This document shows, piece by piece, positions 16,117 through 31,598 of a DNA stretch of 64,000 nucleotides. How positions within the stretch are numbered: the first letter of the stretch is position 1; every line of letters begins with the position of its first letter. This DNA is from Ectothiorhodospiraceae bacterium. GTDB taxonomy: Bacteria; Pseudomonadota; Gammaproteobacteria; Nitrococcales; Aquisalimonadaceae. The notes under the pieces were generated by a model. It did not search any database, was not told the origin of the DNA, and worked only from the letters and a program-made list of their open reading frames with translations. The translations under genes were made by a program, and so were the position numbers. Where the stretch lies: positions 1-64,000 of the forward strand of contig JAFIFV010000046.1 of NCBI GenBank assembly GCA_020831845.1, in the 5' to 3' direction.

Positions 16117-16374
16117 ATGCTCACGATCACCTACACCAAGGAAGCCCAAAAGACCCTGCGCAAGATGCCGCGGAACACTGCGCGGACCATCGTGCGCAAG
16201 CTGGAGCAGTACGCGGTGGCCCCGGCGAGCCAGGCCGCCAACGTGAAGCAACTGCAGGGCGAGGATGCTTACCGGCTGCAGGTCGGCGATTGGCGGGTGA
16301 TCTTTCACCAGGACGGCGACGCCATGACCATCCTGGTGCTGCGTGTGAAACCCCGAGGAGGTGCGTACAAATGA
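16117..16374 (+). CDS. RelE/ParE-family toxin
   Basis: 85 residues. The pattern ITYTKEAQKTLRKMP, KLEQYA, VKQLQGEDAYRLQVGDWRVIF and LRVKPRGGAYK is typical of the RelE superfamily of ribosome-dependent mRNA interferases. The YRLRVGDYRVIF-type core strand and the C-terminal R..K..G are present. The gene overlaps the antitoxin start (ATGA). It is on the strand opposite to the surrounding late genes, so it can be expressed in the lysogen. Confidence 0.88.
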   Translation: MLTITYTKEAQKTLRKMPRNTARTIVRKLEQYAVAPASQAANVKQLQGEDAYRLQVGDWRVIFHQDGDAMTILVLRVKPRGGAYK

Positions 16375-16739
16375 CCGTGCAGATTATCGAGAAGGATGGC
16401 CGCCCGGAGTGGGCGGTGATCCCATATGACCAGTACCTTGTGATGACGGAGGCGCTGGAAGACCGTGCCGACGCCGCCGATGCAGCCGAGGCGCTACGCG
16501 CCGTCCGGGCCGGCGAAGAGGAAGTGATCCCGGCTGCTGTGGTGCACCGGCTGCTGGACGAAAACCCCTATCGCCCGTGGCGGGAATACCGCAAGCGCAC
16601 GCTGCAGGATGTCGCCGACGAGGCAGGCATCAGCAAGCCGTATCTCTCGCAGATCGAGACCGGACAGCGGGAACCGTCACGGAGCATCCGGGATGCAATC
16701 GCCCGTGCGCTGAACGTGGAGCCGTCCGATCTGGAATAA
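16371..16739 (+). CDS. Antitoxin with PHD-like N-terminus and XRE helix-turn-helix
   Basis: 122 residues from ATG 16371, which overlaps the toxin stop. The first 40 residues (VQIIEKDGRPEWAVIPYDQY) resemble the fold of PHD/YefM-type antitoxins. Residues about 70-120 form an XRE HTH (TLQDVADEAGISKPYLSQIETG). The fused domains suggest that toxin binding and operator binding sit in different parts of the protein. The stop overlaps a terminator that serves the opposite strand. Confidence 0.85.
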   Translation: MTVQIIEKDGRPEWAVIPYDQYLVMTEALEDRADAADAAEALRAVRAGEEEVIPAAVVHRLLDENPYRPWREYRKRTLQDVADEAGISKPYLSQIETGQREPSRSIRDAIARALNVEPSDLE

Positions 16740-21939: not shown

Positions 21940-21980
21940 CTGTGTCAATTCCGCGTGACAATGTCACTCATTTTTGGCAC
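21940..21980 (-). promoter_or_regulatory. Late regulatory element, copy 2 (end of the activator gene)
   Basis: 41 bp, 38 identical to 16025-16065, with GTGACaatGTCAC in the middle. It overlaps the stop codon region of the Mor-type gene and stands about 70 bp before the lipoprotein start. This places it where a promoter for the upper late block would be expected. Confidence 0.6.
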
Positions 21981-22267
21981 TGGCCTTCAGCCAGCCAGCG
22001 ATACAGCGTCCGGCGCGAGATCCCGTGGCGACGGCAGACGGCATCGTGGTTGTCTCCGGAGAAGTCGCGCAGGGCTGCTTCCCTGCGCTCCTGCCGCCGT
22101 GTTTTTGAGACGTACTGCGGCGTGCCTCCGTAGCGGAGCATGACCCGCTCCGTGACCGCCCTGGCCGAGTCTTCCGCGACCTGGTTGCTCACACCACGCG
22201 TGCGCAGGCAGTCCTGCACTTCCACCCGGATGAATTCCAGCACATTGTCGATCTCCTGATTGGCCAT
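21968..22267 (-). CDS. Mor-type transcription activator
   Basis: 99 residues. It has the N-terminal helices and the C-terminal HTH typical of the Mor/C family of phage Mu (DFSGDNHDAVCRRHGISRRTLYRWLAEG). Mor and C dimers bind a dyad and recruit RNA polymerase to middle or late promoters that lack a good -35. Its ATG overlaps the terminase stop. The 41-bp elements at 16025 and 21940 are candidate targets. Confidence 0.85.
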   Translation of the reverse strand: MANQEIDNVLEFIRVEVQDCLRTRGVSNQVAEDSARAVTERVMLRYGGTPQYVSKTRRQERREAALRDFSGDNHDAVCRRHGISRRTLYRWLAEGQCQK

Positions 22268-24477: not shown

Positions 24478-25049
24478 CAGCGCGCTCTCCCCTCACGCAG
24501 CCGCCGCAGAGCACGCAGGCGCTCCCGCTTGACCAGGCGGCGCACGCGCCTGACCTCGGCGAGGATCAGCGCACGACGACGCTCCGGGCGGGCCAGCAAC
24601 AGCTGCGGGGTCAGCTCGTCAATCAGCCGCTCCACGGCGGCCCGCGGCGTGTTGCCCAGTATCTCGCCCTGCTTCTGCACATCGGCGATCACGTAGCGCT
24701 CGTGACGGCGCAGCGCCTGTTCCAGCCGGATGGCGGCGTTCTCGTACTGCAGGCGGTCCCGCTGGTACCGTTTCTGCCCTTCCGGCTGCTCCGTCTCAGC
24801 GCTGGACGGCTGTTGCTTTGCTGTTGCGGGCTGTTGCGGCTCCGGCAACGCCGCCCCACGGGCCTCGGCATGCCGTTCCGCCATGTCGGTGCGCCCGCCG
24901 CTGGTCGCGTGGTACCGGGCCAGGCTCTCGTCCACCAGGACCAGCCCTTGGGCATCCAGGACCAGGCGGCCGGACTGTCGAGCTCGCGTGACGGTGGAGC
25001 GGTGCACTCCCAGGATGCGGGCAAATTCGGCCATGGAAACAGCGGTCAT
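24477..25049 (-). CDS. Terminase small subunit (Nu1-like)
   Basis: 190 residues. Residues 1-50 hold a winged HTH (SMAEFARILGVHRSTVTRARQSG) as in lambda Nu1, followed by a linker and a helical, Arg-rich C-terminal domain that would bind the large subunit. Its stop overlaps the large-subunit start. The 393-bp region upstream carries repeats that fit a packaging site recognised by this protein. Confidence 0.88.
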   Translation of the reverse strand: MTAVSMAEFARILGVHRSTVTRARQSGRLVLDAQGLVLVDESLARYHATSGGRTDMAERHAEARGAALPEPQQPATAKQQPSSAETEQPEGQKRYQRDRLQYENAAIRLEQALRRHERYVIADVQKQGEILGNTPRAAVERLIDELTPQLLLARPERRRALILAEVRRVRRLVKRERLRALRRLREGRAR

Positions 25050-25074
25050 GCCGCAACCCCCTGAAAAACCAGGA

Positions 25075-25344
25075 TGGAACGGGCATGGAACAGGCTATGG
25101 AACGGGCTTTTATCTCCTAACTCTCTGTTTTCTCTCAAATAGAACATATGGAACATATGGAACATATGGAACGGGCAAATACACACACGCACGAGAAACG
25201 CGCATGCGCGCAGAACTCCCAAAAAACACACGCACGTATACGCGCGCGACCCCCGTTCCATCCGTTCCATATGTTCCATCTCTGCAAAATCAGCAGCTTG
25301 TGGAAACTGAGCCTGTTCCATAGTCCGTTCCATCACCCGTTCCA
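25075..25344. repeat. Dyad array of 12 TGGAAC repeats; candidate cos site or replication origin
   Basis: No gene is seen in 25050-25442. TGGAAC occurs at 25075, 25086, 25098, then 25149, 25158, 25167. The reverse complement occurs at 25255, 25264, 25273, then 25315, 25327, 25339. Spacings are 11-12, 9, 9 and 12 bp, so the layout is symmetric around about 25210. A 12-bp palindrome CGCGCATGCGCG (25199-25210) lies near the centre. The site sits just upstream of the small terminase, as lambda cosB does, and just after the primase gene. Confidence 0.85.
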
Positions 25345-25442
25345 TAGCCTCCCATCGCCGGTTCGGCCGCGCGCCCCGCCTTGAGCGGCAAACACCAGAT
25401 GTTGTGGCGGTGCCCAGCTGGTCGAGCACAAGATGTTGTGCA

Positions 25443-27878
25443 TCACAGGTCCTCCAGGCTTTGCTGGAACTTGATCCAGCCATCGGTTAGCCATTCCTGC
25501 ATCGTCTCGTTCTCCCCTTGGGCGGCATCGAATGCCGACAGCACCTCCGGCGGTGGAATGACCACGCGCATCTTCTTTGGCGGCCCCTCGGCCTGGTAGA
25601 CGGTGTGCAGGTAGCGCCCGCCGGTGACCCAACCCTCCAGCCGATTCACCCGCCCCAGGAACTGGTTGCTCTGCCGCGGGAAGCGTTCCCCGTTGGCACG
25701 ACACCATCGGAGGTACGCGGTGTAGAGCTGTTTGCTGCCACAAGGCACCACAGGGTGGTCAGTCTCCCCGCCAGTCCACTCCTCAATGAACCGATCCTGG
25801 CTGGGCTTGCTGAGGTAGATCAGGGCATCTTTGGACCGGGTCCCCGGCGGCTTCTTCTTCGGGTGCCAGCCATCCAGGTTGACGTTCAGCAGGTGGTGGT
25901 AGAACGCAGCCACGCCGCCGTTCTCGATCTCGTACCACAGCTGGTCGTACCACTGCTCTGTCATCTGCGGCGGCGTCCAGATCACCAGGTGGCGACGGTC
26001 ATCGTTCTCAAGCGGTAGCGGCTGATCTTCGTTCGAGAGAAAGACCAGGTTGATCTGATTGCGCTGCTTGTACGCCGCAACGTTCTTGGGGTTCACCCGC
26101 ACGCTGGTGCCGGTGACGAGCTCTTTCAGCTCGTTCTTGATGTGGTACATCTCCTGCCGCGTGACCACTTCTTCGGCGAGCAGGAACAGCTTGCTGTCCA
26201 CCCAGTCGCTGTTGAACCGGTCTTCCAGCCCCCGCTGGTTGAGCACCGTGGAATACTCGCCATAGATCCTGGCCAGCGTCTGGAACACAGCTGATTTCCC
26301 GGTGCCCTGCGGCCCGTGCATGATCACGGCACTGGACATCTTGGCACCCGGGTTCTGCAGCGGATACGCCATCCAGCAAAGCAACCAGTCGAACACCTCC
26401 TGGCTGTTCTCCTCACCACTGCACAGATACTCGAGCGTGGTCAGGATCATGTCGCAGTCGCCTGGCTCCGGCTTCATTGGCCACCCGCTCCAGGTATTGA
26501 GCTGCACCGCTGGGTCCCGCTCCGATGGATCGAACCCCACCTGGTCCAGGTAGTACGCGCCACGGTGTATCCAGGTGGGATGCCGCTTCACATCCGCCAG
26601 CTTCGCGTCCGCCGGCAGCAGGGCCAGCATCTGGTCCTTGTGCACGATCTTCCGTGTCCACGTGTCGAACACGTACTTGCCCGTGCCGTCATCGATCGGC
26701 AGGAACCGCTCCACGATCTCGTCGATGTTGAGGATGGAGGCCGCCGCACGTCGCTCCCCCGCTCCCCCTGGGGCGTGTCCCCGCGCGGAAACCGCCGCCT
26801 GTGTTGCGGTCTGCCACCCTGCCTGGGCAATCGCATCCTCCACCTGGACCCGGACGAGGGCCAAGCCTCCCGCTGGAATTAGGTAGAGGTCATTGAAGTC
26901 GGTGAGCTTCTTCCCCTCGCGGTCGCTCGGGAACGTCGGCGCAACAAACGCCCCGCCCACGGCCACCGCCGCGGCCCGGGCATACCTGACTCCAGGGTTC
27001 TCCTGGCCATGCTCCTCGCCGCAGTGCTGACAGTGTTCCTCAGCCACAGCGGTGACCTTCTTGCACGCGCGGCACTTCTGCAGGTAGTCATCGTCAGCGC
27101 AGACCAGCACCCGCAGCCGGCGGTAGGCTTTGCACAGCGCCTCGGATACCGGCTGCAGGTTGTTCGCGGCGAAGGCCACGGCAACCGGGAGGCCCGTCGC
27201 TTCGTGCAGCGTGGCCCCGGTGGCGAACCCCTCGCAAACCAGGACGACGCCGCCGGCCATCGGCGATCCGATCTGGAAATAGTGCCCGCCGATCGCCATG
27301 CCCTTCGGCCAGTATTCCTTCTCCAGGCGCTTGGCTCGATCCTTCCCGCGGATGATCTGCAGGCCGTGGACCCGGCCCTGGGAATCCATCACTGGCACCG
27401 CCACAGTGCCGGATCCGTTCGGCGCGAATCGGACGCCGTGCGCCTGGACGCGCTTGCGCTCCAGGTACTCGCTGCTGCCCTCCGGCAGGTAGGCGTTCCA
27501 GGCCTTCGATGCACGGTGCGCGGCCTTGGCTGCCTCCGCGTCCCGCTGCGCCTGCGCCCGCCGGGCGTTCTCCCGGTGGCGAGCCGCAATCGCCTTCTTC
27601 TCTGAACTGGAGAGCGCCGCCGTGCTGCCGGTCAGCTTGACCCTAAACTTTTCCTTGTCGGCACCCTGCCACCAGCCATAGGAACCGACGATGAACAGGC
27701 CTTCACCGCCCACCTTCCGACTCATCCGGAAGTCGGTGAGCCAGTACCACCCCCGCTTCTCCCGGCCGCCGCCTTCGATGTAGCACCGCACCGGCTTGGC
27801 CGTGCCAACCTCCAGGTGCTCGATCCGCAGACCAGCGCCCTGGAGCTGGGCCAGCACGTCGGCGTAGTTCTCCCACAT
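25443..27878 (-). CDS. Primase-helicase (Toprim plus DUF5906-type SF3 helicase)
   Basis: 811 residues from ATG 27878, which has GGAGGG about 9 nt upstream and overlaps the previous stop. The N-terminal half holds a Toprim-like core (VVLVCEGFATGATL, LVCADDD) and zinc-type cysteines (CRACKK, CQHCGEEH). The C-terminal half is a helicase with Walker A GPQGTGKS and Walker B SKLFLLAEEV. It should prime and unwind phage DNA. An origin with repeats next to such genes is common. Confidence 0.9.
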   Translation of the reverse strand: MWENYADVLAQLQGAGLRIEHLEVGTAKPVRCYIEGGGREKRGWYWLTDFRMSRKVGGEGLFIVGSYGWWQGADKEKFRVKLTGSTAALSSSEKKAIAARHRENARRAQAQRDAEAAKAAHRASKAWNAYLPEGSSEYLERKRVQAHGVRFAPNGSGTVAVPVMDSQGRVHGLQIIRGKDRAKRLEKEYWPKGMAIGGHYFQIGSPMAGGVVLVCEGFATGATLHEATGLPVAVAFAANNLQPVSEALCKAYRRLRVLVCADDDYLQKCRACKKVTAVAEEHCQHCGEEHGQENPGVRYARAAAVAVGGAFVAPTFPSDREGKKLTDFNDLYLIPAGGLALVRVQVEDAIAQAGWQTATQAAVSARGHAPGGAGERRAAASILNIDEIVERFLPIDDGTGKYVFDTWTRKIVHKDQMLALLPADAKLADVKRHPTWIHRGAYYLDQVGFDPSERDPAVQLNTWSGWPMKPEPGDCDMILTTLEYLCSGEENSQEVFDWLLCWMAYPLQNPGAKMSSAVIMHGPQGTGKSAVFQTLARIYGEYSTVLNQRGLEDRFNSDWVDSKLFLLAEEVVTRQEMYHIKNELKELVTGTSVRVNPKNVAAYKQRNQINLVFLSNEDQPLPLENDDRRHLVIWTPPQMTEQWYDQLWYEIENGGVAAFYHHLLNVNLDGWHPKKKPPGTRSKDALIYLSKPSQDRFIEEWTGGETDHPVVPCGSKQLYTAYLRWCRANGERFPRQSNQFLGRVNRLEGWVTGGRYLHTVYQAEGPPKKMRVVIPPPEVLSAFDAAQGENETMQEWLTDGWIKFQQSLEDL

Positions 27879-28120
27879 CAGCCGCAGCCCTCCACCAGGC
27901 CAACGGCCAGGCCGGTGTTGCCTATCTGACAACCCCATCGCCTAGCGGAATTTCGCGAGCTTCTCACCCGCATGGTCGCAACCTCCAGGAAGGACCCGCG
28001 ACCGGATAGGTGCCGTCTATTAATCGCCATGCGCAACGGTGTCGTCCCCGCAACATGCAACGCCACGGCGCCGCTGATCTTACTGGGGGTGCGGGGCTTC
28101 AACGTACGTGCGGACCGCAT
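27878..28120 (-). CDS. Small basic protein, function unknown
   Basis: 80 residues, Arg-rich. Both ends show TGATG overlaps: its ATG overlaps the zinc-finger stop and its stop overlaps the primase ATG. This tight coupling argues that it is translated, even though no family was recognised and its composition is unusual. Confidence 0.5.
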   Translation of the reverse strand: MRSARTLKPRTPSKISGAVALHVAGTTPLRMAINRRHLSGRGSFLEVATMRVRSSRNSARRWGCQIGNTGLAVGLVEGCG

Positions 28121-28356
28121 CAACCGTAGGCCCTGCGAGAGAGATGGCTATTGCGTTGCTCGTGGTCGGACTGGCAGGGGGCGCACATGGTGCAGCCCTG
28201 GGCGGCCGCCCGCCGCTTCTCCGGTATCGGGTCGCCGCATTCCTCGCAGTGCGTCGCGGAGGCGCGGGCGGGTTGCCTGGCGTTCATGCGCCGGGCGTTA
28301 CGGTCGGTTTCCAGTTGCTCCAGGTATTCCCCGGCGCGGTCAGCGAGGTCTGCCAT
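28120..28356 (-). CDS. TraR/DksA-type C4 zinc-finger protein
   Basis: 78 residues. A helical N-terminus is followed by CEECGDPIPEKRR and CTMCAPCQSDHEQRN, the four-cysteine finger of TraR-like proteins. Such proteins bind RNA polymerase through the secondary channel and shift transcription toward the phage or plasmid. It lies in the early replication operon. Confidence 0.82.
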   Translation of the reverse strand: MADLADRAGEYLEQLETDRNARRMNARQPARASATHCEECGDPIPEKRRAAAQGCTMCAPCQSDHEQRNSHLSRRAYG

Positions 28357-29371: not shown

Positions 29372-29863
29372 ATGTCAGATGAAAACAGAACCGAATTTGC
29401 CCAACGGCTCAACGAAGCCCTTGATGACGCTGGGTTTCCGAGCAAAGGCGCTGGACGGCAGGTGTCCGTTGGAAAGCGATTTGGTGTCAGCCAGAAGGCG
29501 GCTCGGAAATGGCTTGAAGGTGAAGGCATACCTAAGACATCTCGCCTGATGGAGATCGCGACCGAACTACGTATCCATTTCGAATGGCTGCTGAGCGGCC
29601 GAGGTCCGAAACGCACCGAACCCGAGGACGACAAGCACCACAGCAGCGACGCAGCTACAGATTCCCGTCTCGAATATCTTCTTCTCTATGCCTCCCCGCG
29701 CTCGCGGGAGGCTCTAAAACGCATTGCCCAAGCCGCCCATGAGGGGCGCCTAACCGACGATGACATTGCACTGCTGGAGCAGACAGCAATGCGCATAGCC
29801 AAGCAGACCAGGGTGGGACCAGGTGACTACAGCAACCTCATGCAGGAGCCAACCGACGACTAA
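29372..29863 (+). CDS. Short CI-like repressor without a protease domain
   Basis: 163 residues from ATG 29372. The N-terminal HTH includes GRQVSVGKRFGVSQKAARKWLEGEGIP. The C-terminal 80 residues are helical and no S24/LexA-like Ser-Lys peptidase is present, so RecA-driven self-cleavage is unlikely. It is followed within 8 nt by a HipA-like kinase, so it could serve both as immunity repressor and as a HipB-like partner. Confidence 0.8.
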   Translation: MSDENRTEFAQRLNEALDDAGFPSKGAGRQVSVGKRFGVSQKAARKWLEGEGIPKTSRLMEIATELRIHFEWLLSGRGPKRTEPEDDKHHSSDAATDSRLEYLLLYASPRSREALKRIAQAAHEGRLTDDDIALLEQTAMRIAKQTRVGPGDYSNLMQEPTDD

Positions 29864-29870
29864 CCGCATA

Positions 29871-30695
29871 TTGCCGCTGGTCGGCGCGACCGCCATGCGG
29901 CAATTCCTGGGCTGGATGCCTGCAGATGATCATCACCGCAATGGGGTGTTCGTTGCGCAGTTTCTGGTACCGGACCAGGGATCTGTGCAGGCGTGCGTCA
30001 AGATGTACCCGCACGAACAGGGCCGAAACCGAGGCCTTGTCAACGAGATTACCGGGTACCTGTTCGGACACGCGCTGGGCATTCCTCAGCCCGATCTCGC
30101 CTTCGTCGCTCATGTCCCGATCAAGCACATCAACGGTGCCAAGGGCTTGGTGCGAGAACTGAAGCGGGCGAAAGTGGACACCTACCCGGCTTTTTGCACG
30201 CGCAGGATCGACGGGCACAGCGCCGCGGTTCGGGTACCAGATAGCCAGCTGCCGGCGGTCGTGGAAGACATTCGCAAATGGCGGGCTCTACCGCACGCCG
30301 TCGCCCTGGACGAAAACATTGCGAACAGCGACCGGCATCTGAATAATCTGTTGCGACTGGGCACCGGGGACTATGCCGTGATTGACAACGGGCTGTTGGC
30401 CTGCCCGTATCCAGGCGGCAACTGGAGCGCAGAAGATCTTGATGCGCAAGGAAATTACGTCAACGTGCTGTCCGAGAACATGTGGCAGAACAACCCGCCG
30501 GGGAGAATGGTCAGCAAGATGCTCGACCTTTCCCGCCACCACCTTTCGGCAGTCGCTGGCATTGCGAATGAGCTAGAATTCTGGTGGTCGAAACTGCTTA
30601 GCGAAGACGACCATCAGGCATTCAAGGCTTTTCTTGATGCGCGAACGGCGAATGTGCACTCACTATTGGCGAACCGTTATGGCCGGCTACTGTAA
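29871..30695 (+). CDS. HipA-like kinase
   Basis: About 274 residues from a TTG at 29871; ATG 29895 is an alternative and no strong ribosome site is seen. Kinase motifs: a Lys in QACVKMYP, the catalytic loop NSDRHLNNLL (Asp and Asn), and the metal-binding VIDNG. LVNEITGYLFGHALGIPQP resembles the HipA_2 group. Members are Ser/Thr kinases, and classic HipA phosphorylates GltX and stops growth. Here it lies between a repressor and a DUF3037-like gene. Substrate unknown. Confidence 0.82.
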   Translation: MPLVGATAMRQFLGWMPADDHHRNGVFVAQFLVPDQGSVQACVKMYPHEQGRNRGLVNEITGYLFGHALGIPQPDLAFVAHVPIKHINGAKGLVRELKRAKVDTYPAFCTRRIDGHSAAVRVPDSQLPAVVEDIRKWRALPHAVALDENIANSDRHLNNLLRLGTGDYAVIDNGLLACPYPGGNWSAEDLDAQGNYVNVLSENMWQNNPPGRMVSKMLDLSRHHLSAVAGIANELEFWWSKLLSEDDHQAFKAFLDARTANVHSLLANRYGRLL

Positions 30696-30698
30696 ATC

Positions 30699-31598
30699 AT
30701 GAACGCGAACCTGCTAGTAGAAGCGAATAGCGAAGAGCCCGCAGCAGTCAGCGGCAAGTGGTGCACGGTCAGCGTGATGCCGGACCCGCTGACTGGGGAA
30801 CGATTCAACGTGGGCGTGGTGTTCCAGGACTCCAAGCGTAAGCTTCACTGGAAGCTGCTGGATAGCACGGCCGCCTTCCGGTGCTTGTACGGCGAGGACG
30901 GCGAATCCAACCTGCGATATCTCGTCTCCGCGATTCAGGAGCATCTGCAACACCACGGTAGTTTCCGCAGCCCTTCCTCGCAAATCCTGTTCGGCCAGCG
31001 CGCTTATGCAGCAGGAGACGACGCGGAAAGCATTCTGGATGAGCTGTATCAGACCATGGTCAGTATCCGCGACCATGGCGACCCATCGGATGCCGAGCCG
31101 CTGCGTGCGCCGACGCTCAGCACTATGGACCTCCGGAAGAAGGTGACCAGGCTGGCGCGCGATCGCGACCCAAACATGGTGGATAGGGTCTTCCGGCGTG
31201 ACCCGGTTGCACTACACGATGCCAAAGAAGCGCCCCATTTGCTGGACCTGCAGATATTCGCCGAACCGGATCTCACGCACCGGAGCACGCGCTTCGGCAG
31301 CATTGTCTCCGTGTATTCCACGGCGCAGATCACCCGCGGCTACTACCTCAACGCCGGGGCACTCTCCCTGATCAACGCCCAAGATATACTCGGCAACGGC
31401 GGGCACGGCGCATTTTTCATCTTGCGACCGCCCGAGGGCACCACGGGTTACACGTCCAGTATCGTGAACGAAATTGACGAACAGATAGACCGTGCCGTGT
31501 TCCCCTTTCAGCGGGAAGCCAGGCGGCGTGTCAGGATTATCAGCACCGACTCCCCCGAAGAGCTGACCGAGGAAGCAATCGATTTCGCATTGCGCTAA
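30699..31598 (+). CDS. DUF3037-like protein paired with the HipA-like kinase
   Basis: 299 residues, 3 nt after the kinase stop. The N-terminus (KWCTVSVMPDPLTGERFNVGVVF) matches the DUF3037 pattern, whose genes often accompany HipA_2-type kinases. The remaining 170 residues extend beyond the usual DUF3037 length and are not recognised. It may be the kinase partner or regulator. Confidence 0.68.
   Translation: MNANLLVEANSEEPAAVSGKWCTVSVMPDPLTGERFNVGVVFQDSKRKLHWKLLDSTAAFRCLYGEDGESNLRYLVSAIQEHLQHHGSFRSPSSQILFGQRAYAAGDDAESILDELYQTMVSIRDHGDPSDAEPLRAPTLSTMDLRKKVTRLARDRDPNMVDRVFRRDPVALHDAKEAPHLLDLQIFAEPDLTHRSTRFGSIVSVYSTAQITRGYYLNAGALSLINAQDILGNGGHGAFFILRPPEGTTGYTSSIVNEIDEQIDRAVFPFQREARRRVRIISTDSPEELTEEAIDFALR

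Follow-up and report, generated by a model that had tools for sequence, protein, structure and literature searches.

A mirrored iteron array behind the primase-helicase gene of a gammaproteobacterial prophage as its predicted replication origin

A dense array of TGGAAC repeats is located between terminase and primase genes of a prophage in the analysed window, a stretch of 64,000 nucleotides from an Ectothiorhodospiraceae bacterium (contig JAFIFV010000046.1), which raises the question of whether it functions as a packaging (cos) site, as a replication origin or as both, as had been considered in the initial annotation, and of which protein reads it. According to the present analysis, the array is very probably the replication origin of the prophage with the prophage's own primase-helicase as the initiator; it is best read as an origin of the PICI/SaPI/P4 type, while the cos reading is disfavoured.

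Composition and genetic surroundings of the array

A recount confirmed the twelve TGGAAC copies, six per strand, and reproduced their arrangement as three direct, three direct, three inverted and three inverted copies with spacings of 11–12, 9, 9 and 12 bp (Table 1). All twelve sites extend to ATGGAAC, a motif present 17 times in the window against 5.2 copies expected for its whole length, 12 of them being inside 270 bp. The extent originally assigned to the element (25050-25442) does include the array, but its bounds were too wide: the array proper, consisting of two mirrored halves of 3+3 perfect ATGGAAC sites, covers 25074-25345. A degenerate iteron, TAGAAC, had been overlooked: positioned 42 bp past the outer left triplet and 9 bp ahead of the inner one, it keeps the 9-bp phase and restores on the left side a 42-bp spacer equal to that on the right. 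The palindrome CGCGCATGCGCG is present at 25199-25210 as described, with the correction that it forms a portion of a long alternating purine-pyrimidine tract.

Table 1. Array elements and neighbouring genes of the prophage, with positions in the window
Feature	Position	Strand	Basis or remark
Mor-like/late activator, phrog_532	21968-22267	-	directly after TerL
Large terminase subunit (TerL), GpA type, 736 aa	22267-24477	-	own packaging motor
TerS small terminase subunit, phrog_57, HTH, 190 aa	24477-25049	-	neighbour, unsupported as array reader
TGGAAC sites, plus strand	25075, 25086, 25098, 25149, 25158, 25167	+	recounted in window
TGGAAC sites, minus strand	25255, 25264, 25273, 25315, 25327, 25339	-	recounted in window
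Outer left iteron triplet, ATGGAAC x3	25074-25103	+	spacing 11 and 12 bp
Degenerate iteron TAGAAC	25140-25145	+	sequence, compared with grid of relatives
Inner left iteron triplet, ATGGAAC x3	25148-25172	+	spacing 9 bp
Core, 82 bp, alternating purine-pyrimidine, putative melting region	25173-25254		sequence and run-length count
Inner right iteron triplet, ATGGAAC x3	25255-25279	-	spacing 9 bp
Outer right iteron triplet, ATGGAAC x3	25315-25345	-	spacing 12 bp, 42 bp from inner triplet
Primase-helicase, 831 aa, putative origin-binding initiator	25443-27938	-	Toprim_3, DUF5906, VapE-like; phrog_2249
Predicted C-terminal winged-helix segment of primase, ~residues 694-799, putative iteron reader	25542-25859	-	AlphaFold model and iteron covariation
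DksA/TraR-type zinc finger protein	28120-28356	-	upstream of primase

The placement between terminase and primase genes was confirmed, with TerS on one side and a Toprim/DUF5906 primase-helicase (Toprim_3 at residues 232-305, DUF5906/VapE-type helicase at ~511-670) on the other. The order on the minus strand is DksA/TraR zinc finger, primase-helicase, array, TerS, GpA-type TerL and Mor-like activator, and the DksA/TraR-type gene upstream of the primase is an arrangement common to the phages PG1, pAN and H4907. Since a GpA-type TerL is present, the element is a prophage carrying its own packaging motor and no satellite. The prophage also contains, at 16117-16739 (+), a gene for a RelE-like toxin (phrog_1213) and, behind it, a helix-turn-helix ORF, probably a toxin-antitoxin pair, and two adjoining ORFs at 29823-31598 (+), phrog_11186 and phrog_27972, which lie beside the repressor on the strand opposite to the replication genes and are candidates for cargo.

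The array is separated from the primase stop by ~98 bp in the window and by 0-20 bp in most relatives, a departure that counts against the origin reading. This segment includes two 14-bp direct repeats, CACCAGATGTTGTG and CACAAGATGTTGTG, at 25393-25440, and it looks like an insertion because the relative G016 has just 12 bp there. Two ORFs run through the array, one of 145 aa at 25046-25483 (-) and one of 197 aa at 24730-25323 (+), both of them likely spurious gene calls. Rfam gave no match across 24-29.5 kb of the window, and a search for DnaA boxes near the array found none. The GC skew does not turn clearly at the array, a point against the origin reading.

The core between the two halves has a GC content of 0.60 compared to 0.64 in the whole window and is thus not AT-rich as in PICI/SaPI-type origins; in the relatives, too, the GC content of the core is about equal to that of the locus. 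What distinguishes it is an alternation of purines and pyrimidines, which extends over a run of 23 nt. The longest such run had at least 12 nt in 60 of the 61 cores of relatives (median 17) compared to 12 of 511 control windows (median 6).

Conservation of the layout in related elements

In G016 (L144), whose primase is 71% and TerS 55% identical to those of the window, the 3+3 / 3+3 layout is found at the equivalent place; this conservation of the full layout, together with the density of the sites, excludes chance and upholds the initial claim to that effect. The gaps in the grid of the relatives are about 9-12, 9-12, 42-43, 9, 9 and 84-88 bp, and are then mirrored. A comparison of repeat spacing among related prophages had been proposed in the initial annotation, with poor conservation in close relatives counting against its view of the array; such a comparison demonstrated a highly conserved layout, the repeat sequence being variable.

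An initial scan with TGGAAC was replaced by patterns of opposed pairs because coding repeats with multiples of 9 bp dominated its output. Convergent pairs were detected in 66 viral stretches and divergent ones in 37, with a further 24 genome contigs carrying opposed pairs, while the reversed hexamer, used as a control, gave 4 viral stretches. About half of the TGGAAC array loci included an SF3-type helicase gene, whose 3' end was nearly always ~60 bp or less from the array, and the array-adjacent proteins (n = 48) had several different primase architectures (DUF5906 in 29, VapE-like in 15, D5_N in 10 and DUF927 in 7). The gene on the far side of the array varies: TerS in the family of the window, a ParB-like/methyltransferase protein in the locus L193 and Psu in a P4-like element of Pantoea. 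The polarity of the TGGAAC sites, facing inward or outward, resembled a single switch on the primase tree, but it was discounted as a functional class since the iterons change freely between relatives.

Some TGGAAC arrays had no detectable SF3 helicase nearby, which is a point against the origin reading. In 20 such records, without an SF3 match in the locus, a DUF5906 search was negative, while a custom helicase profile identified one helicase adjacent to the array (the L192 record) and one at a distance of 3.5 kb (the L024 record). A group of polA-encoding viruses (L276:5048-5144, the record of L168; L155-L179, L198, L217), in which no SF3 helicase was found, has opposed TGGAAC copies directly ahead of a Terminase_2 TerS gene. 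Two further opposed arrays, L017:5500-5753 and L024:10799-10914, adjoin genes for a serine recombinase and a tyrosine integrase and could, among other possibilities, be attachment sites.

Single-protein searches with the whole primase in viral and genome contigs found nothing. Alignment of the primase only, irrespective of any repeat, brought up 80 viral loci, 78 of them with enough flank. At least seven two-way copies of one hexamer were present just 3' of the primase stop in 68 of these 78 loci, compared to 2 of 468 control windows drawn from the same primase-selected loci; with a threshold of at least six copies the number increased to 75 of 78. The arrays comprise ~25 clearly different iteron sequences on a similar grid, in which the inner sites are 9 bp apart, the outer ones 10-12 bp apart, the recurrent spacers 31 or 42-44 bp and the core 80-92 bp long; sites cluster at ~44, 53 and 62 bp and at ~104-126 bp from the array centre. 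In the 53 arrays with at least ten copies, the median distance from the primase stop to the first site was 4 bp. Dozens of related viruses thus share the layout behind this gene although their repeat sequences are of many kinds, indicating that the position is conserved and the sequence is free to change. The spacers of 42-43 bp (four helical turns) and the steps of 9 and 12 bp (just under and just over one turn) suggest a fixed arrangement of the sites on the helix.

Two full-length relatives from whole genomes of the class, G311 and G313, have the same grid, the iterons being TGTGAC and ACTACA. The G313 array lies on the 5' side of the primase, ahead of a small gene, which speaks against the origin reading. 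Among published temperate phages, Stenotrophomonas phage S1 (NC_011589, L129; primase 41% identical) has twelve copies of CCGCAC, unannotated as an array, 18 bp past the primase stop. The gene gp2 of this phage (L129:2454-2804), annotated as a hypothetical protein, overlies the CCGCAC array and is probably no real gene. Arrays of other sequence follow the primase in the temperate phages pAN, PG1, Turba, LPPA56, Mcat9 and H4907, the copy counts in PG1 and Mcat9 being near the shuffled maximum. No array was found 3' of the primase in ZP6, K289, VP5, FP1 and ZCEC13; for ZP6, K289, VP5 and FP1, a gene for a phage DNA polymerase is also present on the stretch retrieved.

The iteron reader and the alternative functions

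The AlphaFold model of the primase has a low-confidence middle part (mean pLDDT 71) and a winged-helix-like C-terminal end of high confidence. Foldseek searches with this model ranked the NrS-1 helicase first, followed by D5/SaPI-type helicases, including SaPI PriRep1 with dsDNA, SaPI5 and D5. Pfam, Foldseek and the model thus agree on the combination typical of the initiator in PICI/SaPI-type origins, a SaPI-Rep/D5-like helicase with a C-terminal DNA-binding domain. Across 68 loci, the iteron similarity correlated with the winged-helix identity after the helicase was accounted for (partial r 0.34, permutation p 0.0005), the helicase itself contributing nothing beyond the winged helix (0.05); with both helicase and TerS accounted for, the winged helix retained its correlation in 62 loci (partial r 0.32, p 0.001), and TerS, given helicase and winged helix, had next to none (0.03, p 0.13). 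The permutation takes the loci as exchangeable and corrects for relatedness only in part, with both proteins contrasted on the same loci. The C-terminal winged helix of the primase is therefore best read as the probable iteron reader, as judged from sequence covariation and the structural model.

A cos function would imply that the TGGAAC repeats are recognised by TerS in the way that R sites are by lambda gpNu1 and that the large subunit cuts the palindromic centre. An HTH TerS and a GpA-type TerL do adjoin the array, TerS is within 900 bp of it in 54 of the 68 close relatives, and the polA-encoding group has its TGGAAC pairs next to a terminase gene and no detected SF3 helicase. Because TerS usually adjoins the array, synteny alone cannot part an origin from a cos site within the close family. 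The decision comes from elsewhere: in unrelated elements, too, the array is found behind the primase-helicase, it changes in sequence together with the winged helix, it remains at the primase stop where TerS is 1-2 kb off (L344, L345, L355, L363, L364, PG1 and Turba), it is present beside alpha in P4-type elements that lack a terminase, and overall TerS identity shows no covariation with the iterons once the primase is accounted for. The initial annotation had also remarked on the difference from lambda cosB, and this was upheld: both lie beside a Nu1-like terS gene, but twelve mirrored sites are unlike the few R sites on one side of cosB. Taken together, the origin part of the initial proposal stood, while a cos function of the array is extremely improbable.

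A combined site, in which the primase would read the iterons and TerS would use part of the 270 bp or the flanking 100 bp, is also very unlikely. It is favoured by the conserved order primase-array-TerS-TerL in the family of the window, by the usual position of lambda-type cos sites adjoining terS, and by a weak residual correlation of the iterons with the TerS N-terminus alone (0.08, p 0.007). Against it, the array contains no TerS-linked signal and is intact in relatives with a distant TerS. Moreover, since TerS is usually adjacent in the close family, a separate cos may well sit in the same intergenic region, where the 25-200 bp between array and TerS could hold it with the iterons uninvolved.

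Repeat arrays of this kind can also bind regulators or ParB, and a ParB-like gene follows the array of L193, but a function as partition site or as operator of a transcription regulator has almost negligible probability here: the helicase is constant whatever gene lies on the far side (TerS, ParB/methyltransferase or Psu), the array is 3' of the helicase gene and remote from its promoter, the covariation of the iterons is with the winged helix of the primase, and P4 replication requires the counterpart crr in cis.

With the array as the origin, initiation may be envisaged as follows. The C-terminal winged-helix domains of the primase-helicase would bind the ATGGAAC iterons, one hexamer per half-array of six (3+3) sites, by analogy with SaPI Rep and Cch2 (PMC7581432) and P4 alpha. 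The two hexamers would face each other across the ~82 bp core, melt it and load on the single strands, after which the Toprim domain would lay primers and the forks would leave in both directions.

Relation to known replication origins

Relative to the open-licence literature, the new elements are the presence of such predicted origins in tailed phages that encode a terminase themselves, a grid conserved despite a free iteron sequence, the alternating core and the covariation evidence on the reader. We consider it a real possibility, though somewhat short of probable, that these arrays represent a broad class of temperate-phage origins fixed in geometry and not in sequence, with 3+3 helically phased sites per half seating one hexameric primase-helicase, a Z-DNA-prone alternating core replacing the AT-rich melting element, and an iteron/winged-helix pair that is exchanged or diversifies fast, so that phages and their satellites would fall into numerous replication-specificity groups that exclude one another. 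In practical terms, a positional rule for locating origins follows for phages with DUF5906-type primases, namely a mirrored iteron grid of any sequence at a distance of 0-100 bp past the primase; gene calls within such arrays, as in the case of S1 gp2, are flagged as probably spurious. The loci also offer naturally matched winged helices and iterons, with which the seating of hexameric SF3-like helicases and changes in origin specificity can be studied, and they raise the testable idea of a Z-DNA-prone tract as a melting element.

The PICI origin is located directly 3' of rep and has two iteron sets and an AT-rich core (PMC6092414), and the C-terminal domain of SaPI Rep and of Cch2 binds iterons located behind the respective gene, where the proteins are thought to sit as two hexamers (PMC7581432). 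The array of the window resembles these origins in its position just 3' of the primase/rep gene, in the D5/SaPI-Rep-like helicase as putative initiator (PMC6092414, PMC7581432) and in the two iteron sets around a centre, here 6+6 mirrored sites and an 82-bp core. It differs in belonging to a phage that encodes both terminase subunits itself and in its alternating purine-pyrimidine core instead of an AT-rich one; compared to PICI, the site grid was measured here and is conserved over ~25 iteron sequences. The layout was described as occurring in no other known bacterial replicon (PMC6092414), but it is evidently shared by temperate phages too. An origin type that its describers regarded as peculiar to satellite islands is thereby extended to tailed phages with terminases of their own, including the published S1, pAN, Turba and Mcat9.

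Similarly to the array of the window, P4 crr is found directly 3' of the alpha primase-helicase gene and contains iterons in both orientations, with spacings of 9 and 43 bp. Unlike the single symmetric element with twelve sites here, P4 possesses ori and crr as separate elements, each irregular and with fewer sites, and its type I iteron GGTGAACA is absent from the array, all sites of which are ATGGAAC. In P4-like loci of Enterobacteria (L264:5046-5221 from Pantoea, L266 from Citrobacter, L208, L175 and L211), the iteron behind the alpha-like gene is GGTGGAACA, one base longer than the P4 type I repeat. Finally, the origins of pRN1 and Bordetella phage BIP-1 are likewise 3' of a gene for a primase/SF3-helicase/winged-helix protein, but they have been described as large stem-loops without iterons (PMC4234260), while the sites in the window are iterons.
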